42,968 nt of DNA, taken from the IMG/VR virus record IMGVR_UViG_3300028388_004822, positions 1 to 42,968 of that record; one strand, written 5' to 3'. The DNA comes from a virus. How positions within the stretch are numbered: position 1 is the stretch's first letter; each line of letters opens with the position of its first letter. Below the pieces are notes generated by a model. It was not told where the DNA came from and did no database searches. It saw only the letters and a program-made list of their open reading frames with translations. A program made the position numbers and the translations under genes. Shown here one piece after another: positions 2,809 through 41,682 of the stretch.

Positions 2809-4274
2809 ACGTCCTCGAAAACGTCATCGCTGCATTATCACCGGGTTGGGCAGCCGCTAGAGCTCGTCACCGGATTGCATTGCAAGCCTATGAAGCGGCC
2901 GATACTACCCGATTACGTAAGCCGCGGCGGGAGAACCGCAGCGGCGACGGTGCCGTACGTAAGGCTGGGAAGATCATCCGTGAGCAAGCACGAGCACTGG
3001 ATGAAGATCATGACCTGGTGGTTGGCATCTTCGATACGTTTGTAGCCAATGTCGTCGGACCTCATGGCATTCAGATCGAGCCGATGCCGCGAAAACGGAA
3101 CGGCGAGATTCACATAGAACTGGCTGAGCAAATCGAAGAAGTACGCCGTGATTGGATTCAGCGACCCGAGTCGACCTGGGAATACGATAATCCCATGATG
3201 GAACGCATCATCGCCAGAACCTGGGCACGTGATGGTGAATGCTTTGCGCAGCATCTTGTCGGCAATGTCGCCGGCCTTGAACACGGTACACGGATACCGT
3301 ATTCACTGGAATTGTTGGAGCCGGATCTCTGTCCGATCCATTATGACGATCTTTCGAAAAACATTATCCAAGGGATTGAACGCAACGCTTGGAGTCAGCC
3401 ACAAGCCTTTTGGTTTTATCTCTCTCATCCGGGCGATACCTATGGGTTTCGCAGCATCAACCCAACGGCTATGAAACGGGTGCCGGCAGCGCGCGTACAA
3501 CATATCAAATTGGCGCGCCGGTTACGCCAGGCGCGGGGAATCTCGCTGCTGGCGCCGGTATTGAATCGGTTGCACGACGTCAAAGAGTACGAGGACTCGG
3601 AGCGGATCGCCGCAAAGATGGCCAGCGCGATGGCGATGTATGTGAAAAAAGGAACTCCAGATCTGTATGAGCCCGATAAGACCAGCGACGAAACCGGCGA
3701 AAGTGATCGACGGCTATCACAAGTCGCACCTGGCATGATGTGGGTAGATCTGATGGCCGGCGAAGAAGTAGGCACGATCGATGTCAGTCGGCCGACGAAT
3801 TTGCTTACACCATTTCGTGAGGCGATGCTGCGCGCCGTCGCCGCCGGGACTCAAACCAGCTACAGCTCGATATCACGTAACTATATCAGCAACTATTCGG
3901 CGCGGCGTCAAGAACTGGTTGAGCAGTTCATGCATTACACCACGTTGCAGGGCCAGTTCATTGCGCAGTGGTCGCGCCCGGTCTATCAGCTCGGTCTGGC
4001 TACTGCGATCGCCGCGCGCATCATTCGCATTCCTTCTGATGTCGATCCGTTAACTATTGACGATGCCGGGTACAACGGTCCGGTCATGCCCTGGATTGAT
4101 CCGGCGAAAGAGGCGAAAGCGCAAGAGTTGCTGGTAAAGAACCGCTTCAAATCACACAGCCAGGTGATCCGCGAGCGCGGCGGGATTCCAAGCAAAGTCA
4201 AGAAAGAGATCGAGCGCGAGCAGGCTGAAAACACTGACGTGCCGGCGTCAACATTAGAGGATCGAGCAGCATGA
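2805..4274 (+). CDS. Portal protein, lambda gpB family
   Basis: Dodecameric portal at the packaging vertex, 489 aa from ATG 2805. Family-typical features are the N-terminal arginine-rich segment after the first helix, the segment VVGIFDTFVANVVGPHGI and the C-terminal block SYSSISRNYISNYSARRQEL followed by a basic/acidic tail. An ATG at 2793 could add four residues, but 2805 gives the ATGA overlap with the upstream stop. The stop overlaps the protease-capsid start in the same way. Length matches the lambda portal family (about 500 aa). Confidence 0.93.
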   Translation: MNVLENVIAALSPGWAAARARHRIALQAYEAADTTRLRKPRRENRSGDGAVRKAGKIIREQARALDEDHDLVVGIFDTFVANVVGPHGIQIEPMPRKRNGEIHIELAEQIEEVRRDWIQRPESTWEYDNPMMERIIARTWARDGECFAQHLVGNVAGLEHGTRIPYSLELLEPDLCPIHYDDLSKNIIQGIERNAWSQPQAFWFYLSHPGDTYGFRSINPTAMKRVPAARVQHIKLARRLRQARGISLLAPVLNRLHDVKEYEDSERIAAKMASAMAMYVKKGTPDLYEPDKTSDETGESDRRLSQVAPGMMWVDLMAGEEVGTIDVSRPTNLLTPFREAMLRAVAAGTQTSYSSISRNYISNYSARRQELVEQFMHYTTLQGQFIAQWSRPVYQLGLATAIAARIIRIPSDVDPLTIDDAGYNGPVMPWIDPAKEAKAQELLVKNRFKSHSQVIRERGGIPSKVKKEIEREQAENTDVPASTLEDRAA

Positions 4275-6735: not shown

Positions 6736-7044
6736 ATGAGCGATTTCAGCATAGCCGCAGCGGACGCTGCCGAAGTTATCTTCGAGACGATAGGCGAGTC
6801 CGCGAGCTATGTTGATGCCGGCATGGCGGAAGCTATTAATTGCACCGTCATACCCACCTTCGGCGTACAGCTAAACACCGGCTACGACGCCATCGTCGAG
6901 CCGATCGATACGTTTTTCTTTCGCCTGGCGGAGATCCGACCGCGAGTGAACGGCCGGGTGACGCTCAACAACATCACATACTGTCTCGTCGAGCTGATCC
7001 GAGGCGATGAAACAGAACAAGAATGGCAGGTAAGGCAGCTATGA
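6736..7044 (+). CDS. Head-tail connector candidate
   Basis: Protein of 102 aa located between the decoration protein and a tail-completion gene, the place of the lambda gpFI/gpFII connectors. It is acidic with beta-strand-like segments (VRPRVNGRVTL-type spacing before the C terminus). Pattern suggests the Phage_attach-like head-tail attachment group, but similarity is weak by eye. Its stop overlaps the next start (ATGA at 7041). Confidence 0.5.
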   Translation: MSDFSIAAADAAEVIFETIGESASYVDAGMAEAINCTVIPTFGVQLNTGYDAIVEPIDTFFFRLAEIRPRVNGRVTLNNITYCLVELIRGDETEQEWQVRQL

Positions 7045-9684: not shown

Positions 9685-12600
9685 ATGGCATCAAAACTTA
9701 CTAATGTCGTAGAGCTGATCTATCTCACCAAAGATTTAGCGTCAGCAAGCGTCGAAAAAATTGTCTCAGCACTGCGCGGGGTGCCTCCAGCCACTGAAGA
9801 TGCTGCCGCCGGCAACAAACAACTGGAAGAGAGCTTCGAGGAAGCAGAAGAAAAAAGCAATCGATTTTCCGAAGCGCTGCGCAAAACCCGCAACTCGATC
9901 GCGGGGTATGCCGCAGCGATTTTTGGACTGAACTCTCTCAGAAAAGGATTTCTTTCGGTACTGGATGCGGGGGCCGATCTCGAAAAGCTCGAAATACAGA
10001 TAAAGCAACTGTACGACACCGCCGAAGAAGGCGGTGCCGCGTTTGCCTGGGTGCGCCAATTCGCCAAAGAAAATCCGACATTCGATGTCACACAGGCGTT
10101 TGTGAAACTCAAGGCGTTCGGTATTGAACCGGCGACCGGCAGCCTGCAGGCGTTGATCGATCAGTCGGCCAAACTGGGCGGGAATCAGCAAACCCTGGAA
10201 GGGTTGATCCTGGCCGTTGGCCAAGCCTGGTCAAAGCAGAAGCTACAAGGTGAAGAAATTCTTCAGTTGGTTGAGCGCGGTGTTCCGGTTTGGGATCTAC
10301 TGGCGAAAGCAACCGGAAAGAACGTACAAGAGCTACAGAAACTCAGCTCTCAAGGCAAGCTGGGGCGTGCTGAAATCAAGCTGTTGCTCGATGAAATCGG
10401 CCGATCCTCGGAAGGATCCGCTAAAGCTCAGCTTGGTACCTTCAGCGGCTTGATCTCCTCGCTTCAAACGCAATACAAACGCTTCCTCGAAATCATCGCC
10501 AATTCCGGCGTACTCGATACCGTCAAACGCCAGCTCGAAGAGTTCAATAACAACATTGAGCAAATGGCCAAATCAGGCCAATTGGACAGACTGGCTAAAG
10601 GGATTGGTGCGGTCATCACCGGCATCATCAATTTTGTGCGCAGTATGGGCGGTACCGGCGTTGTGCTGCTTCAGGTTGTTGTTGCCCTCAAGGCGGTTAC
10701 ATTGGCATTTGGCGGGTTGTTCAGGGCGATCGGGCTTATTCTCCAGGTGGGTTTAATTCTACGGATTGCTGGCTGGGTCAAGGCGCTAAAGGATTACACC
10801 GTCGTCGCTGGAGCCGCAAATGCAGCCACATCGGGCATGAGTACCGCCGCCGGAATTGCTAGTGCCAGCGTAAGCCGTTTTACCGGGCTTATTTTTAGCC
10901 TCGGCAACGCTTTTAAAGGTACGCTGGTGGTTGCGGCGGTGGCCTCGGTCGTTGAAATCATTAAATTCGGGAAATCACTCTATGACGCGGCGGCCGCGGC
11001 CGTAAATCTCAGAGATACGGTCCAGGACATAGAAGGCAATAACGGATTACTGGCCGAAAAAGCGGCGGAGGCAAAAAAGACACTCGCAGACTATGCGGAT
11101 CAGGCCGTATTGACCGGTAATCAACTGCGTGATCTCTCCGAGGAGGAAATTAAGGGATATCAGCGGAGGTTGGAAGCAGCGCGGGATTATTTTCTGGCCG
11201 TACGCGTCGAGGGACAAGCTCTGGGAGATGAGCCTGGCGTTGCAGCGGCAACTGACAAAATAAAGACATACGAACAAGCGTTGCAGGGCGCTTCGGATCG
11301 TTTAAAGCAACTTCAGAGCGACGCTGCCGCCGCTGCCGCCGCACAGGCACAGGCGTTGGCGGATTTGGACAAAAATCTGCGGGCATTGGGGCTGAGTCTA
11401 TCGGAGGTGCAAACCGGTATTAGTGACTCTGAACAAAAAGTCATCGATGCGTTGACCGAGATTACGAAATCCACTGAATTGACCGGGGATATTCTTGGCA
11501 AAGCATTTACTGAAGCATTCGAAAAGGTTGAAAGCCCTAAAGCTATCGAGCAGCTAAAGTCACTGCTGGACCGGCTTAAATCCGATGCCGTGATCGTGAA
11601 AGGGGAGACGGAGGGCCTCAGGCAGGCTGAAGAAGCCTACAATCGAGCATTGGAGGCGCGTGCAAACACGACCAAGACGGCTGTGGATGCACAAAAAGAC
11701 AACGCGGCCGCGTTGGAAGAACTGGCGAAGAAATATCAGGATGCCAGGAACGAAACGGCGCTATTAGAGCAATCCCAGCAGCTCGGCAATGCCACTGCCG
11801 AACAGGTCATCGATGCCCGTCGGCGCGAAGCGGAAGCGCTTCAGGCGTATAACGATGCTCTGGCCGAGGGCGTCGACGCCGCCGAACGATCACTGGCAGC
11901 CCGCGAGCGCGAAACCAACGCGGCAAGCCGGGCGATCGACGTAAAAATCGCTGATGCGCAGGCCGCCGAGCGATCGGCACAGGCCGCCGGCGACGAGGTC
12001 GGCGCGCGCAACGCCCGTGTGCGCGTTCTACAGTTGGAAGCGCAACAGGCGCGCGTATTGGCCGAAGGCCGGCGTCAGGAAGCCGCTGCCGCTGATGCAC
12101 TGATAAAAAAACTGCGAGAACAGGCCGAGGTAGACGGGATTGTCACGGCCGCCGAGGCGGAAGCTATCGCCAGAGCTCAGGAAAGCGCCGATGCGAAACG
12201 TGAACAGGCGCAAATATCCGAAAGCAATGCCCGATCGAAACTCGCCGAGGCGCGAGCGGCAAAAGAAACAACAACCGCGCTGAACAAAGAGGCTGAAGCC
12301 GTTGAAAAGCTCTCACAGGAACAAAAAGCCGCCCAAAAAGCCGCCGCCGATCTCGGCGCGGCGCAGGAATTTCTTTCACAGATCATCGAGGCGCAGGAGA
12401 AACGCCTGGCCGGAGTATCGGAGGCGGCAAAACAGGCGTTTCAGGATCGGCTGACAAACGGCGCCATCACGGCGGCGAATGCGATCGAGACAACGAACGA
12501 AAAGCTGGAGATCGCCAACGATCGCCTGCTGAACAGCCTGCGGATCGAGCGATCGGCGGCGAGCGGCGCATTTACCCAGATTGCGGCTTATTACGGCCGG

Positions 12601-22699: not shown

Positions 22700-23416
22700 T
22701 TATCCCCTAACATGCTTCATCCAGTTTTTTAGCTGGTCGTCGCCCATCCACTCGATCAGCCGGAATAATTGCTGGGCGGCCGCCGGCGGGCGTTGTTCGC
22801 CTCTCTCCCATTTTCCGTACGTGTCGCGGTGAATCCCGCAACACGTAGCCATGCTTGCAACACTGAGTCCGAGGATGTTTCGGAGTGAAAAAATGTTGGC
22901 GGGAACGGAAAAATCTGTATATTCGCTGAAAAATTCTTTTCCCCACTGAAATGCGAATCCGTTGATACGATCCGTATCGCTATCTCCTATCATTAGTGCG
23001 TTAGCCGGATCGACATCAAAATCTTCGCACGCCTGCATAAGCATACCGCTGCCCGGCTTGCGCCAGTCCGGGCGCCAACTGGCTACCACATAGGGACTGT
23101 CATCGGCGTCGACGACAACGCTGTCGACATCGTCGCAAGACGGCCATTCATCGCGGCCGTGATGCAGTGCTACGTAGATTCGATCGATAGGTAAGACGGT
23201 CGCGATGGCACCCATCCGATCCAGAACATCAGCTAGATCTGGATACGTTTCATCGTCGGTGTGACGCCGATAGCCGACGCCACCCTGATTTGTCACGACG
23301 GCGATCGCCACGCCGTCGCTCTTGATCCGGGTTAGTTTTTGCGCTACGCCCGGGAGAATTTTTGTCGTCCACGATTCCGCGAGCGTGCCGTCAAGATCTG
23401 CTAATAAGAGCTTCAT
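22700..23416 (-). CDS. HAD-type phosphatase fused to a helix-turn-helix domain
   Basis: Protein of 238 aa with two parts. Residues 1-160 are a haloacid dehalogenase phosphatase of the HisB-N/GmhB type: DLDGT (residues 7-11, nucleophile D7 and acid D9), VTNQGG (41-46), WRKPGSG with K120 and GDSDTD (144-149) are all intact. After a linker, residues about 175-225 form an XRE/Cro-like helix-turn-helix with SLRNILGLSVASMA and GKWERGEQRPP. A phosphatase joined to a DNA-binding domain is unusual. The gene lies downstream of the promoter/operator at 24029-24057, which it may regulate. The substrate cannot be inferred. Confidence 0.8.
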   Translation of the reverse strand: MKLLLADLDGTLAESWTTKILPGVAQKLTRIKSDGVAIAVVTNQGGVGYRRHTDDETYPDLADVLDRMGAIATVLPIDRIYVALHHGRDEWPSCDDVDSVVVDADDSPYVVASWRPDWRKPGSGMLMQACEDFDVDPANALMIGDSDTDRINGFAFQWGKEFFSEYTDFSVPANIFSLRNILGLSVASMATCCGIHRDTYGKWERGEQRPPAAAQQLFRLIEWMGDDQLKNWMKHVRG

Positions 23417-24650: not shown

Positions 24651-24826
24651 TATCACCTTCTACGGGTGGCACAAAAGGCCGTAATTTTTTCCAAGTGATG
24701 AAGGTGTGAAGGTGATGAAGGGAGTTATACATACTGTTAAATCAATGGTTAAGGTGATGAAGGTTGGTTCATCAAAGGTTCATCACTCATCGAGGTTCAC
24801 GCCGGGTTCATCACCGGGTTCATCAC
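24651..24826. repeat. GTGATGAAGG / TTCATCAC repeat cluster
   Basis: Direct copies of GTGATGAAGG occur at 24695-24704, 24712-24721 and 24754-24763. In inverted orientation TTCATCA[A/C] occurs at 24768-24775, 24779-24786, 24807-24814 and 24819-24826; a further partial copy ATCACCTTC is near 24653. The last copies lie inside the FtsK gene 3' end (encoding its SDEPGDEPG tail). The compact clustering beside a translocase gene suggests a binding array, such as a loading or centromere-like site. Confidence 0.55.
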
Positions 24827-26513
24827 TTGGGTGAAGGTGGTTTCTAATTGCTTCCAGATGAATTTGAGCCGGCTTGCCCTTGGTCAGTGTGGCGAATCCC
24901 ATCGCGGCCAGTTCCGCGTGTTTTTTCTCCGCCTGGCGCTGGCTGATGCCTAACCGTCTCCGTGTGTCGGTCAGTCTGAGCGATGTGATGTTCTCATCGA
25001 TCAGCCACTGCAAGAACTCATCATCGGCATCGAGCCGGCCGGCCGATGCCGATGACTGGCCAAGCTCTGCCAGCTCCGGAACGTGATGGGTTCTGATGTT
25101 CAGCTGCTGAGCTTTGGCGGCGACGCGACCCACAAGCGTGTTTACCTGATCGGACGTAAACAGAGGCGCCTTGAACTCTGTCAGCTTGCCCTTGCTGGAA
25201 AACACACCCACTCCGGTAGGTAATCCGGCTGCGGCGTCAGTGCCGATGAATGCGCGTGAGCTGTTCTTATCCCCTGTGTCGAACGCGATCCGTGCCGGCA
25301 ATAGGCTTTTGAACTCCGGCGTGCTGATCTCCGGCGTAGGCCGCTGCATGGCAACGATCAGTGTAATACCCGCGCTACGGCCTTGCCTCAGTAGCTCAGA
25401 CGCCAGATGAAATACGTCGGACTGACCAGACTTGCTGCCGTTCGATCCGAGGTTTCCCCATTCCTCGAGGACTACGAAGAGATGACCTTTCACGGTGTAG
25501 ATGCCCTGATTCTGGCGCCGGCGCATTTCGTCGCAGCACCAGGCCAGCGCTTTTTCGGCCTCGTGTTTCTCGCAGATTACCGGGGCAACAAGATGCGGAG
25601 CGTTTTCGAAAATGAGAAGATCTTCGCGCTTCGGGTCAATCAACAGCAAACGCGCCTGGCGCGGGTCGGCATAGCCGACGATTTGCGCCAGCAGATAGCG
25701 CAGGAACGTTGATTTGCCGCTTCCGGTGGTGCCGGCCAGGCCTACGTGCGGAACGGTCGTGGTACCCATTTCAGTTTTCAGCGGGAAGCCGTTGTGGCTG
25801 GCTGCACCGAGAATGATTTCATGTTTTTTCAAATTCGGTTTTCCGAGCAAATCAGGGGTCAGATCCTTCTGTTTCTCATCGCGAACGATCAGGAACGCGG
25901 CGCGCTTCTCGGGTTTGATGTCCAGCGAGAAATCGCCGTGTTTAATCGCAAAGGCAATGGCTGGCTCGATGCCTTTGAGCTGGTCGCCGGCCTGGTCGTC
26001 GAGCAGTTTGATGCCGACGGTCTCACCGATCGGGGTGATGCGCGCACCTTGCACCTGGGCGGCGATCAGATTGTCTTCGATCAGCTTTGCCATGGCTTTG
26101 CACTTTGGTGACGGCAGACGCGCCAGGTCGTGTTTGTAAGGGGGATCCAGCGCGGGGGGGTCGTTCGGTATCTGGCGGCGGTCCGGCGCTGGCTGCGTGT
26201 CCGCCATGATGTATCGCTCCATTGTTTCCAGGCGCATAAACAACGCCATCAGATCGCGGCCTCGGACGTCGAGCGCATCGAGGGCGCTTACCACCGTGCC
26301 GGCCAGTAGGATCAGTAGCAGTAGCGGGGCGTCAGTCACTGCGTGCCAGAAAATCGGCGGCCAGACTGTGACGACGCCGGCGAACAATACCCACGCGCCG
26401 ATGACAAACGGCGTCATCGAGATGTTGACGCCTTCTTTGCTGGTTGTTGTTTCGTCGTTCCCGCTTGCCGACCGGCGCCGGTGCTGCGTTTTTGTTTTTG
26501 TTCGAATCTGCAT
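24783..26513 (-). CDS. FtsK/SpoIIIE-type DNA translocase
   Basis: Membrane-anchored DNA pump of 576 aa. Two hydrophobic segments (about 36-54 and 62-80) lie at the N terminus. The motor has Walker A GTTGSGKS at 261-268 and Walker B LFVVLEEW at 345-352, with IDPKRED and the RPTPEISTPEFKSLLPARIAFDTG region typical of FtsK. The last 100 residues form a winged-helix-like domain (LRLTDTRRRLGISQRQAEKKHAELAAMG), analogous to FtsK gamma, which reads DNA orientation. Host FtsK is longer (about 800-1300 aa with 4 TMs), so this is a compact element-type version. Start ATG 26513 is only one base after the upstream stop. Role (DNA segregation, transfer or packaging) is uncertain. Confidence 0.85.
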   Translation of the reverse strand: MQIRTKTKTQHRRRSASGNDETTTSKEGVNISMTPFVIGAWVLFAGVVTVWPPIFWHAVTDAPLLLLILLAGTVVSALDALDVRGRDLMALFMRLETMERYIMADTQPAPDRRQIPNDPPALDPPYKHDLARLPSPKCKAMAKLIEDNLIAAQVQGARITPIGETVGIKLLDDQAGDQLKGIEPAIAFAIKHGDFSLDIKPEKRAAFLIVRDEKQKDLTPDLLGKPNLKKHEIILGAASHNGFPLKTEMGTTTVPHVGLAGTTGSGKSTFLRYLLAQIVGYADPRQARLLLIDPKREDLLIFENAPHLVAPVICEKHEAEKALAWCCDEMRRRQNQGIYTVKGHLFVVLEEWGNLGSNGSKSGQSDVFHLASELLRQGRSAGITLIVAMQRPTPEISTPEFKSLLPARIAFDTGDKNSSRAFIGTDAAAGLPTGVGVFSSKGKLTEFKAPLFTSDQVNTLVGRVAAKAQQLNIRTHHVPELAELGQSSASAGRLDADDEFLQWLIDENITSLRLTDTRRRLGISQRQAEKKHAELAAMGFATLTKGKPAQIHLEAIRNHLHPSDEPGDEPGVNLDE

Positions 26514-26514
26514 A

Positions 26515-27042
26515 TTACCGGCTGACGACGCATGAAAAATAGCCACGGAGCTGGTCGTAGCAGGTGGTTGTCAGGCGCTGCGCGGCCGGCCAGGCGCGGG
26601 CCTGTTGCTGCGCGGCCTGCTGGTAACTTTTGAAATACCGCTGCAGGTCGTGAGCATAGGTTTCCCACTCGGTTGCGCGGTTGCGCAGTCGTTCGGCGAT
26701 CTGTTCTGTCCTGACGCGTTCCCGTTGGCACTGCGCAAGTTCGTTATGGGTCGGTCGCACATCCTGCCGGGCGGCCAATGATTCCCAACTGCGCGCCTTT
26801 TCCTTCCAGTAGGCGACGTCGTTAAGCAGGCGCGTAATATGATCGGCCTGTGCGGCGGCGCCGGCTGCCCGTTGAATAGAACGATCGGCAGCCTCGATCG
26901 AGGCGGCGGCGTTCGTATAGGCAGCCCTGGCCTCGGTCCCAGCGGGATGGGTCGCGCCGATAATCGTCAGCAGCGCAAACGGGATCAGTGTCAAACCGCA
27001 AGCCTGGGCGTTGCGAATAAACGATGGGCGATAGTGATTCAC
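26515..27042 (-). CDS. Membrane-anchored coiled-coil protein
   Basis: Protein of 175 aa starting with GTG (overlapping the upstream stop as GTGA) and stopping one base from the FtsK start. One hydrophobic helix lies near the N terminus (CGLTLIPFALLTIIG), followed by a long Ala/Arg/Gln/Glu-rich helical domain (about residues 45-160), probably coiled coil. Such anchored coiled coils often scaffold a membrane motor, so it may be an FtsK accessory. No enzymatic motif seen. Confidence 0.65.
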   Translation of the reverse strand: MNHYRPSFIRNAQACGLTLIPFALLTIIGATHPAGTEARAAYTNAAASIEAADRSIQRAAGAAAQADHITRLLNDVAYWKEKARSWESLAARQDVRPTHNELAQCQRERVRTEQIAERLRNRATEWETYAHDLQRYFKSYQQAAQQQARAWPAAQRLTTTCYDQLRGYFSCVVSR

Positions 27043-35996: not shown

Positions 35997-36026
35997 TTGA
36001 CATAAGCAGTTTAAGTACTCGATTAT
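35997..36026 (+). promoter_or_regulatory. Rightward early promoter (PR-like) with operator
   Basis: TTGACA (35997-36002) and GATTAT (36021-36026) are 18 apart; the operator AGCAGTTTAAGTACT (36005-36019) fills the spacer. The expected start site is around 36033, immediately before ATG 36034, which has no ribosome site, so the Cro-like mRNA may be leaderless. Confidence 0.65.
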
Positions 36027-36033
36027 AAATAGC

Positions 36034-36321
36034 ATGAGTACATTAGCTGAACGACTGAAATCCCGGCGGATAGAAAAAGGCTTGTCACAGCGGGCCTTTG
36101 CAAAAGCGGTTCGTCTATCACAAAGGACCATTTCGAAAATTGAAACAGGTGACACTGACTTACCTCGCATGGCTCATCTCGAAGCTATGGCCGATGAGTT
36201 AGGGACTACACCTATATGGCTGTTGTTCGGAGTAAATGTTAACACCAATTGCGGTTGTCAACATGCTCAGAAGTTTTCACCAAGTGCGGAGTTGAGCAGT
36301 GGTAGCTCGTCAGGCTCATAA
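36034..36321 (+). CDS. Cro-like XRE regulator overlapping the tRNA gene
   Basis: 95 aa. Residues 1-70 are an XRE helix-turn-helix (LAERLKSRRIEKGLSQRAFA, LSQRTISKIETGDTDLP). The last 25 residues are Ser-rich and include NCGCQH. The final 37 bases lie within the tRNA gene, and the stop codon uses the tRNA anticodon loop (TCA TAA). It is the first gene of the rightward early transcript and, by position, the Cro counterpart. The leaderless start is inferred. Confidence 0.75.
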   Translation: MSTLAERLKSRRIEKGLSQRAFAKAVRLSQRTISKIETGDTDLPRMAHLEAMADELGTTPIWLLFGVNVNTNCGCQHAQKFSPSAELSSGSSSGS

Positions 36322-36359
36322 TCTGAAGGTCGCGGGTTCGAATCCCGCCTCCGCTTCCA
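36285..36359 (+). tRNA. tRNA-Met(CAT), initiator-like
   Basis: A full cloverleaf of 75 nt with encoded CCA: acceptor TGCGGAG/CTCCGCT, D arm GAGC-AGTGGTA-GCTC, anticodon arm TCAGG-CTCATAA-TCTGA, variable AGGTC, and T arm GCGGG-TTCGAAT-CCCGC. It shares with bacterial initiator tRNA an unpaired first acceptor pair (U1/U72), A11:U24 in the D stem and the CTCATAA loop with the AAGGTCG neighbourhood. The three consecutive G:C pairs at 29-31/39-41 are not retained (A:U, G:C, G:U) and the discriminator is U73. It overlaps the Cro-like gene end. Confidence 0.85.
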
Positions 36360-36365
36360 TCCTTT

Positions 36366-36417
36366 GCGACTGCAGCGGGATGCCGTCTTGTCGAGACGGT
36401 ATCACCGGTGCATTCGC
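36366..36417 (+). ncRNA. Structured RNA hairpin 1 (short-loop copy)
   Basis: Long imperfect stem GCGACTGC...GCATTCGC outside and TGCCGTCT/AGACGGTA inside, loop TGTCG, starting 6 bases after the tRNA CCA. The internal part AGCGGGA opposite TCACCGGT has a G/G mismatch and one bulged A. Copy 2 (36484-36596) shares this arrangement. No protein is encoded. Confidence 0.7.
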
Positions 36418-36442
36418 ACCCTTGGATCTTTCCACCCAGATT

Positions 36443-36477
36443 CGGCCGGCTGTTCCTTTGCGGCCGGTCGCTTTTTT
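36443..36477 (+). terminator. Intrinsic terminator between hairpins 1 and 2
   Basis: CGGCCGGC (36443-36450) pairs with GCCGGTCG (36463-36470, one G:U) over a 12-nt loop, then C and six T. It should stop rightward transcription about 440 bases after the PR-like start unless antitermination occurs. Confidence 0.85.
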
Positions 36478-36483
36478 ACTGCT

Positions 36484-36596
36484 GCGACTGCAGCGGGATG
36501 CCGCCGAGAAAAGGCCGGGCTGGCCGAGTGTCGGAATCAGGCCTTGCCAGATGAAGCGAGCCGGCCTGTCCGAGGCGGTATCACCGGTGCAGTCGC
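36484..36596 (+). ncRNA. Structured RNA hairpin 2 (long-loop copy)
   Basis: GCGACTGC (36484-36491) pairs with GCAGTCGC (36589-36596) perfectly. TGCCGCC (from 36499) pairs with GGCGGTA (36574-36580). The apical 68 nt contain a further nested stem (AGGCCGG with CCGGCCT, CTGGC with GCCAG). Against copy 1 an inner T:A pair has become C:G and an outer mismatch has become a pair, which supports RNA structure. Confidence 0.7.
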
Positions 36597-36629
36597 ACCA
36601 ATCCAAATTTCTCCTTTTGGTTGTTATCT

Positions 36630-36665
36630 TTGCGGTCGGAGACACTTTCCTCTCTTTGGCCGCAA
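36630..36665 (+). promoter_or_regulatory. Hairpin before the membrane gene
   Basis: TTGCGGTC (36630-36637) pairs with GGCCGCAA (36658-36665, one G:U), 20 bases of loop. It has no T-run, so it is not a terminator. It precedes ATG 36685 by 19 bases and could affect translation. Confidence 0.5.
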
Positions 36666-36684
36666 TCTATTCCGGGCTGCCGTC

Positions 36685-36849
36685 ATGGATCTGATCTGGA
36701 CGGTAGTCGCGCTGCTCGTCGGGGTACCGGCGGGGTTGATCCTGACCGTGGCGGTCGTGGCACATTGGCGCGGTCGTTATATCCGCCGCCGGCGTACTCG
36801 GCCGACGGGCTTCTGGCTCCACGGCGAGCAGCACATCAAGAGGCTGTAA
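36685..36849 (+). CDS. Small membrane protein
   Basis: 54 aa. One long hydrophobic segment (IWTVVALLVGVPAGLILTVA) followed by a very basic tail (WRGRYIRRRRTRPTGFW). ATG 36685 has only a weak ribosome site. With the next gene it forms a pair of tiny membrane proteins in the structured RNA region. Function unknown. Confidence 0.5.
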   Translation: MDLIWTVVALLVGVPAGLILTVAVVAHWRGRYIRRRRTRPTGFWLHGEQHIKRL

Positions 36850-36851
36850 CG

Positions 36852-36983
36852 ATGAGTGATACGGCCTTTTTGATTTTTGTCCTGGTGTTTTGGGTGCCGG
36901 TTATACCGGTGGCTGTTCTGATTGCGATCGGGTGCCTTGTCTCTGTCCGGCGGCACTGCGATCGGTACCGGTACCGGGGTTAG
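36852..36983 (+). CDS. Small membrane protein
   Basis: 43 aa, hydrophobic from residue 4 to 34 (AFLIFVLVFWVPVIPVAVLI and IAIGCLVSV), then RRHCDRYRYRG. It starts two bases after the previous stop. A role in the membrane (lysis regulation, exclusion) is only a guess. Confidence 0.5.
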   Translation: MSDTAFLIFVLVFWVPVIPVAVLIAIGCLVSVRRHCDRYRYRG

Positions 36984-36993
36984 TCATGGTTTT

Positions 36994-37049
36994 CGCGATC
37001 CAGGTGGTTCCATCACTCACTACCCATCCTGCTTTACGCCTGGGTCGCG
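36994..37049 (+). promoter_or_regulatory. 11-bp stem hairpin upstream of the attenuator
   Basis: CGCGATCCAGG (36994-37004) pairs with CCTGGGTCGCG (37039-37049), ten Watson-Crick pairs and one G:U, around 34 loop bases. It lies at the beginning of the 374-base non-coding region that follows the small membrane genes. Confidence 0.6.
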
Positions 37050-37059
37050 CTTTGAGTCT

Positions 37060-37141
37060 CCATCAGCTTGGCATTGCTAAGCGTTTCTCCTCCTTTGTTA
37101 GTGGGTCTTGCCGGCTGATGGGTCATCACCCGGCCTTTTTT
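37060..37141 (+). promoter_or_regulatory. Antiterminator/terminator switch
   Basis: CCATCAGC (37060-37067) pairs with GCTGATGG (37114-37121), enclosing nested stems (GGC/GCC and GCTAA/TTAGT). Alternatively GCCGG-C-TGATG (37110-37120) pairs with CATCA-C-CCGGC (37124-37134), followed by six T. The two cannot form together. The second is an intrinsic terminator (ten pairs, one C/C mismatch, 3-nt loop). Such mutual exclusion is typical of attenuators and riboswitch expression platforms. Confidence 0.6.
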
Positions 37142-37172
37142 ATGAGGGGATCGAATAACCACAGCGAGGCGT

Positions 37173-37224
37173 CCGGCCCGGCGTGTTGCCTTAGTCACGT
37201 CGCTTGTCAGTCACCGAGGGCCGG
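37173..37224 (+). promoter_or_regulatory. GC-rich hairpin in the rightward early leader
   Basis: CCGGCCC (37173-37179) pairs with GGGCCGG (37218-37224), with 38 bases enclosed. It is followed by CGGTGCATCTTTTTC, a weak T-run, so it may be a poor terminator or part of the larger structured leader. Confidence 0.45.
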
Positions 37225-37238
37225 CGGTGCATCTTTTT

Positions 37239-37274
37239 CTCTGAATGCGCTTTGTCAGCAGAGCGCATTCAGAG
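37239..37274 (+). promoter_or_regulatory. Perfect 13-bp hairpin
   Basis: CTCTGAATGCGCT (37239-37251) and AGCGCATTCAGAG (37262-37274) are perfectly complementary with a 10-base loop. A neighbouring hairpin GAGGGGCCT/GGGCTCCTC (37272-37280 with 37288-37296) overlaps its end by three bases, so the two compete. Neither is followed by a T-run. Confidence 0.65.
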
Positions 37275-37323
37275 GGGCCTTTCGACAGGGCTCCTCTATT
37301 CTCCTTCTTGAAAGTACCGATTT

Positions 37324-37347
37324 GCCGGACTCCGGTCCGGCTTTTTT
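37324..37347 (+). terminator. Intrinsic terminator before the early gene at 37358
   Basis: GCCGGAC-TCCG-GTCCGGC followed by six T. Only ten bases separate it from ATG 37358, so the downstream ribosome site AGGAG lies within or right behind it; termination here would silence the replication genes unless read through. Confidence 0.88.
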
Positions 37348-37357
37348 AGGAGTTTTT

Positions 37358-37570
37358 ATGACCCGGGATGAGGCGATCCAGTTTCTTGACGATCGGCCGG
37401 CCGATGAGCCGCTGCTGATCTTGCCCGCCGGCGATCCGGCGGTGCTGGCCGTGTGCCAGATTTTGCTCGTGATGGCGTTTAAAACCGGTGACCTTGCCGG
37501 TGCCGAGCAGATTCAGGCGCTTGAGCGGCGGATGCGTGAGTATCAACTGGCTCGGGAGCGGGGATTATGA
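37358..37570 (+). CDS. Small early protein, function unknown
   Basis: 70 aa with TAGGAG before ATG. The sequence is helical, with DEAIQFLDDRPADEPLLILP and AEQIQALERRMREYQLARER. It resembles small early helical proteins of phages and may bind another protein. It overlaps the next gene as ATGA. Confidence 0.6.
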   Translation: MTRDEAIQFLDDRPADEPLLILPAGDPAVLAVCQILLVMAFKTGDLAGAEQIQALERRMREYQLARERGL

Positions 37571-41394: not shown

Positions 41395-41434
41395 CGTCCA
41401 CCCGGCTCAAGCCGGGTTCTGAGCCGGGTGGACG
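41395..41434. repeat. 15-bp perfect inverted repeat after the primase gene
   Basis: CGTCCACCCGGCTCA (41395-41409) is exactly complementary to TGAGCCGGGTGGACG (41420-41434), ten bases apart. Each arm contains the iteron core TGAGCCGGG. It may be an origin element and also a stem in the primase mRNA 3' end; no T-run follows. Confidence 0.8.
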
Positions 41435-41682
41435 ATCCATTTAACTTCTTGATACGAGGAGAATATATACGTCTGAGCCGGGTGAGCCGGGTGCTTTTCT
41501 AAAACTTTTCCCTACGGGGAAAAAAATTTTGTCTGCTGTTTAAAAAAACTTTTTCGCATATGCGGAAAAGTACCCGGCTCACCCGGCTCACCCGGCTCAA
41601 TCCATATAACTTATTGATCATTAGAATATAAATAATATTGGGTTGAGCCGGGTAATGGACGATTTGAGCCGGGTGAGCCGGG
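41395..41682. other. Candidate replication origin with TGAGCCGGG iterons
   Basis: Ten copies of TGAGCCGGG are present: five direct arms at 41420, 41474, 41483, 41644, 41665 and 41674 (six in this orientation), and inverted at 41401, 41573, 41582 and 41591. Between them is an AT-rich core with the palindromes TTTTCCC-TACG-GGGAAAA and CTTTTTCGCATATGCGGAAAAG-like (22 bases, 41550-41571). Tandem copies at a 9-base pitch are unusual for iterons. Position right behind the initiator/helicase supports origin function. Confidence 0.7.

Follow-up and report, generated by a model that had tools for sequence, protein, structure and literature searches.

A candidate tRNA-linked cluster of structured small RNAs in the early region of a lambda-like temperate phage

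The early region and its initiator-type tRNA

The DNA analysed here (the window) comprises an entire virus record, 42,968 bases long, and belongs to a lambda-like temperate phage. Its left part carries the terminase, portal and capsid protease genes, and it further encodes an integrase, two back-to-back HTH regulators and, to the right of the hairpin region described below, a primase-helicase. Its TerL protein is closest to that of Marinobacter phage PS3 (50%), followed by that of Pseudomonas phage KT1 (46%). The host probably belongs to the methanotrophic Gammaproteobacteria. Elsewhere in the window, an FtsK/SpoIIIE-like ATPase (24783-26546, minus strand) lies among leftward phage genes, and a 238-aa protein (22700-23416, minus strand) matches HTH families in its C-terminal part, while its N-terminal half appears by eye to be HAD-type phosphatase-like. 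Behind the primase gene, at 41395-41682, TGAGCCGGGTG repeats are clustered in both orientations, and this cluster is likely a replication origin with iterons. The features of the early rightward region are as follows.

35997-36026, plus strand: presumed early rightward promoter, PR (TTGACA, 18 nt, GATTAT), matching the consensus at 10/12 positions; its placement is presumptive
36034-36321, plus strand: HTH_3 (Cro/CI-like) regulator of 95 aa, the last 37 nt of its gene inside the tRNA
36285-36359, plus strand: initiator-type tRNA-Met(CAU), an Rfam match, with its features read from the letters
36360-36366, plus strand: spacer TCCTTTG, identical in the relative L093
36365-36418, plus strand: hairpin 1, with repeat arms (MFE -37.6 kcal/mol, z -7.1)
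36419-36442, plus strand: linker from hairpin 1 to terminator 1, with the pyrimidine stretch TCTTTCC
36443-36477, plus strand: intrinsic terminator 1, with an 11-bp stem and six T
36483-36597, plus strand: hairpin 2, with the stem and repeat arms of hairpin 1 and an apical extension of ~68 nt (MFE -71.5 kcal/mol, z -6.0)
36601-36622, plus strand: possible small hairpin presenting TTTCTCC, its pairing read by eye from the sequence
36629-36667, plus strand: further stem TTGCGG.../...CCGCAA with CTTTCCTCTCTTT on the loop side, likewise read by eye
36686-36984, plus strand: two short hydrophobic ORFs (54 and 43 codons) of uncertain coding status, without family match
37066-37141, plus strand: small-RNA-like unit of a hairpin, the anti-Shine-Dalgarno (anti-SD) run TTTCTCCTCCTTT (37084-37096) and a terminator
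37239-37347, plus strand: small-RNA-like unit of a 16-bp hairpin (37239-37274), the run TTCTCCTTCTT (37299-37309) and a terminator (z -6.0)

Early rightward RNA is expected to start at ~36033 from the presumed promoter, so the mRNA of the HTH regulator would be nearly leaderless, and no Shine-Dalgarno (SD) sequence is visible for the gene at 36034-36321. Promoter-like matches in the region are no more numerous than in shuffled sequences. Since the final 37 nt of the HTH gene are also part of the tRNA, an RNase P cut would remove the stop codon of that gene, and the HTH mRNA left after tRNA processing would be non-stop. The spacer TCCTTTG behind the tRNA is a possible processing site.

Is the tRNA a genuine initiator? 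Two initiator marks are present, namely the 1:72 mismatch (T1/T72) and A11-T24, and those of its matches in Methylococcales genomes that were inspected are initiator tRNAs. The discriminator is T73. Of the three G-C pairs that typify the anticodon stem of an initiator at 29:41, 30:40 and 31:39, only the middle one is kept; these positions are A-U, G-C and G-U in the window and A-U, G-C and U-G in L093. The host initiators carry G-C at 29:41 and 31:39, the two pairs changed in both phage tRNAs, and across 311 Methylococcales genomes the phage-type anticodon arm was found only on the L093 phage contig. VapC toxins cleave initiator tRNA between the anticodon stem and loop (PMC8522696), anticodon-loop changes have been proposed to let phage tRNAs escape such nucleases (PMC10264068), and phages generally avoid encoding a tRNA-fMet targeted by VapC-LT2 (PMC10264068). 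One may speculate that the changed anticodon stem serves escape from initiator-tRNA nucleases. A third phage sequence, L239, has an initiator-type tRNA at ~2741-2819 with 29:41 and 31:39 changed and T73, and the tRNAs of the window (36285-36359), L093 (6759-6833) and L239 occupy the same early place near a Cro-like gene. In TerL-related phages and prophages, tRNA-Met genes of two sequence types sit in the head cluster, ~1.8-1.9 kb behind the terminase gene (L026 at 10677, L027 at 13822, L028 at 13772, L039 at 13769 and L053 at 3553).

Sibling hairpins, terminators and pyrimidine runs

An earlier note had described two related hairpins behind the tRNA, and both are present. Their 5' arms are a direct repeat of 21/21 nt (36365-36385 and 36483-36503, 118 nt apart), their 3' arms repeat at 27/29 nt (36392-36420 and 36571-36599, 179 nt apart), and none of 200 shuffles folds as well as either hairpin. 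A 20-nt pattern of the 3' arm, allowing up to three mismatches, has two sites in the window where 0.01 is expected, and these are the two hairpins. The G/G mismatch, the bulged A, the inner change from T:A to C:G and, at the outer position, a C/T mismatch in copy 1 against a C:G pair in copy 2 are all as that note had them, and its apical extension of ~68 nt in copy 2 does fold, although large parts are ill defined in the ensemble (centroid). Its further claim that the structure is kept under change fares less well within the phage. With copy 2 joined by hand after removal of the apical extension, one compensatory pair among 23 separates the copies and 251 of 500 shuffles do equally well, so this covariation proves almost nothing statistically; modest support comes from the one relative, L093. 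A protein-coding repeat was considered and rejected, because the 118-nt offset is not a multiple of 3 and the overlapping ORFs have no PHROGs match.

The strong terminator placed between the hairpins by the earlier note lies at 36443-36477, and a sequence scan together with folds identifies it and those at ~37110-37141 and 37324-37347 as three intrinsic terminators with strong stems and six T. That note overlooked the initiator-type tRNA overlapping the HTH gene, the hairpin at 37239-37274 and three anti-SD-like runs. Pyrimidine runs of at least 11 nt that contain CTCCT or CCTCC occur only three times in 43 kb on either strand, and all three (starting at 36608, 37084 and 37299; 11-13 nt) lie on the plus strand within the non-coding stretch 36608-37309 (~0.7 kb), and in two cases the run separates a hairpin from a terminator; the run criterion was set after inspection of the sequence, hence no formal probability attaches to this count. 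The run at 36608-36618 has a mean unpaired probability of 0.73, and that at 37084-37096 (TTTCTCCTCCTTT) of 0.93 when folded alone and 0.48 in a long fold.

A diverged relative and searches for further copies

The relative L093 (IMGVR_UViG_3300027822_000403) was reached via a primase alignment of distant phages, and its primase is 47% identical to that of the window. Its DNA is the same as that of a contig in the Methylococcaceae MAG UBA2778, possibly mis-binned there. The L093 tRNA lies syntenically between the HTH genes and the primase and is 86% identical over 81 nt, through the 3' flank CCATCCTTTG. Behind it stand a ~60-nt hairpin CACTCCTC, a CUCCUC linker (unpaired 0.90) and a terminator, together forming a unit at 6834-6950. 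The sequence of this hairpin is largely different from that in the window, and L093 keeps the first module only, the second hairpin and the later modules being absent. In the region behind TCCTTTG, the two phages align better than do 990 of 1000 dinucleotide-shuffled sequences in a global comparison and 970 of 1000 in a local one; the hairpin 3' arms are alike at 18 of 22 positions (alignment p ~0.01-0.04), and three aligned pairs of the folds are changed on both sides. This one relative thus provides good evidence for a conserved layout and modest evidence, from the sequence comparison, that the hairpins may share common descent. Contigs carrying this tRNA type numbered 101; in the subset that was read completely, the TCCTTTG flank followed by hairpin, linker and terminator was seen on L190 alone, which is the L093 contig.

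The earlier note matched the hairpins to no named RNA family, and Rfam 15 agrees, giving only the tRNA above the gathering threshold; at E values up to 5 all other matches are at chance level, the best being sub-threshold at E 0.04. The covariance-model search that the note proposed recovered no further copy: model R1 gave nothing convincing in ~3.4 Mb of related loci and no match in 311 Methylococcales genomes. A match of R1 in L080 (E 0.002) was rejected, as it lies inside overlapping long ORFs without conserved neighbours. The exact 5' arm was not found in viral contigs, where a core-with-gap pattern gave four matches that were judged to be chance because their flanks lack the arms, and a stricter pattern found none in the contigs of 85k genomes. 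Searching the window with filters off revealed no third copy, and DNA similarity searches with the hairpins returned only chance or tRNA matches. Single queries with the terminase, primase and early proteins found no close relative among viral contigs, and the TerL relatives do not share the early genes except for a distant primase; in some of them tRNA-Met lies at another place and has no such hairpins. In L207 (~3958-4110) and L224 (~11417-11570), an initiator-like tRNA is followed by a strong hairpin GAATGCCGTCTCAGCTGAGGCGGTATTC that superficially resembles the inner stem of the window hairpins, to which the covariance model gave no score.

Interpretation and comparison with known systems

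A fundamental question is what this arrangement does in the early transcript. Our leading reading, held tentatively, is a tRNA-linked cluster of structured small RNAs released from that transcript, and some of these might occlude ribosome-binding sites; the RNAs are most likely of an uncatalogued type. We infer that the early rightward transcript would carry the initiator-type tRNA and then the cluster, that RNase P would free the 5' end of the tRNA, and that cutting or trimming of the spacer TCCTTTG would separate the tRNA from hairpin 1, with 3' ends set by the terminators at 36477, 37141 and 37347. The sibling hairpins would form the stable 5' domains of two small RNAs, probably bound by a ProQ/Hfq-like protein, the single-stranded pyrimidine linkers would pair with SD regions of host or phage mRNAs, and the replication genes downstream would be supplied by terminator read-through. 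The rationale for this reading is that the hairpins are far beyond chance and duplicated; that the succession of hairpin, pyrimidine linker and six-T terminator occurs three times in the window (36365-36477, 37066-37141 and 37239-37347) and once in L093; that the only long anti-SD-like runs of the phage fall in 36608-37309; and that its layout has precedents in NmsR (PMC5362039) and rrA/rrB/rrF (PMC8144298). The trans-acting small RNA option of the earlier note likewise fits the layout of the window and of L093. Small RNAs with an anti-SD run between hairpin and terminator are suggested at 37066-37141, at 37239-37347 and at 6834-6950 of L093, and more loosely by the hairpin 1 module, whose linker TCTTTCC has no real anti-SD motif. 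The sibling hairpins are therefore not units with the best runs, which limits our confidence. Also weighing against the small-RNA reading, no second promoter stands out in the region, no named sRNA family matches, and the single module of L093 has a hairpin z of only -2.0; a non-coding stretch may simply be where pyrimidine runs accumulate.

Nearly as good an explanation, although on its own a doubtful one, is that the hairpins and terminators do no more than insulate the tRNA within the early operon and promote its maturation, with no trans-acting function; they would serve as an exonuclease barrier, as an RNase III substrate, or as partial terminators that balance regulator and tRNA against replication mRNA. 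About 6 nt separate the CCA end from hairpin 1, the TCCTTTG spacer, hairpin and terminator recur in L093 despite the diverged hairpin sequence, as expected of a structural spacer, and in L028 and L063 a terminator likewise stands directly behind the phage tRNA-Met; left unexplained are the exact repeat of hairpin 2 behind a terminator, its 68-nt extension and the anti-SD runs downstream. The other option of the earlier note, a put-like cis-acting antitermination RNA in which each hairpin would bind the elongating polymerase and let it read through the terminators into the replication genes, is unlikely, although the hairpins may act like put by some different means. Its position behind PR holds, with hairpins preceding terminators and several intrinsic terminators on the way from the presumed PR to the primase; the profile match, a copy behind the leftward promoter and the two-stem fold do not. 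A profile (R2) built from HK022 putL and putR, which were placed by mutual similarity in an HK022 record without annotation and given an RNAalifold rather than cryo-EM structure, recovers both sites (99 and 104 bits) and finds nothing in the early region of the window, its best score being 7 bits on the other strand. Moreover, the leftward operon shows no strong internal terminator on the minus strand, and with terminator 1 between the copies, copy 2 would be made only once that terminator had been passed. N proteins are too divergent to rule out an N-like gene.

It is improbable that hairpin 2 and the later hairpins are 5' leaders of moron cassettes, each with its own terminator, that regulate translation of the hydrophobic ORFs (36686-36984) and of the gene at 37360. 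Two such ORFs do follow hairpin 2 directly and terminators separate the cassettes, but the ORFs have no family match, the SD before the first is weak and each cassette lacks a promoter. Only a slim chance is given to a phage take-over of translation initiation, in which the altered initiator tRNA and co-transcribed anti-SD RNAs carried on conserved long hairpins would damp SD-dependent initiation to the benefit of leaderless phage mRNA, the HTH regulator's message being one example; the tRNA change lies next to the anticodon loop, where VapC-type toxins cut. Least probable, and very much so, is an element acting as DNA, either a protein-binding palindrome or an attC- or REP-like single-strand recombination site. 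Bulges, conserved arms and a variable terminal loop are features reminiscent of folded single-strand sites, yet neither the attC core (RYYYAAC/GTTRRRY) nor a GTAG foot is seen by eye, the element was not found in host genomes, and the phage tyrosine integrase gene is located elsewhere.

If the RNAs of the proposed small-RNA cluster are made, they would represent an uncatalogued phage small-RNA type that is tied to a phage initiator tRNA and belongs to the first transcript after infection or induction. An initiator tRNA with a changed stem alongside RNAs that could cover ribosome-binding sites would make phage RNA action on translation initiation testable; if only tRNA maturation and the tuning of termination are at work, the locus is an ordinary operon detail.

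How does the locus compare with known systems? NmsRA and NmsRB of Neisseria are tandem sibling small RNAs with an anti-SD stretch between stem-loops (PMC5362039), and the likeness lies in the tandem copies, a stem-loop followed by a UC-rich anti-SD stretch, and intrinsic terminators. In contrast to the window, the NmsR genes are chromosomal, have their own promoters and are not linked to a tRNA; there is no sequence match, and Rfam NmsRb hits the window only at chance level. The rrA, rrB and rrF small RNAs lie between the dual terminators that end E. coli rRNA operons (PMC8144298) and resemble the arrangement proposed for the window in that a small RNA made by read-through stands behind stable-RNA genes with a terminator between, although these are bacterial rRNA operons and no sequence relation is expected. 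In HK022, putR lies ~270 nt behind PR (PMC9378689), and hairpin 1 of the window lies ~330 nt behind the presumed PR start; both are on the early rightward transcript of a lambda-like temperate phage, a few hundred nucleotides behind PR and ahead of intrinsic terminators. The put sites, which counter termination in cis by way of the beta' zinc-binding domain, are however compact two-stem-loop elements of ~70 nt with a copy behind each of PL and PR, whereas the window has single hairpins of 52 and 113 nt, a terminator between them and no copy behind PL.
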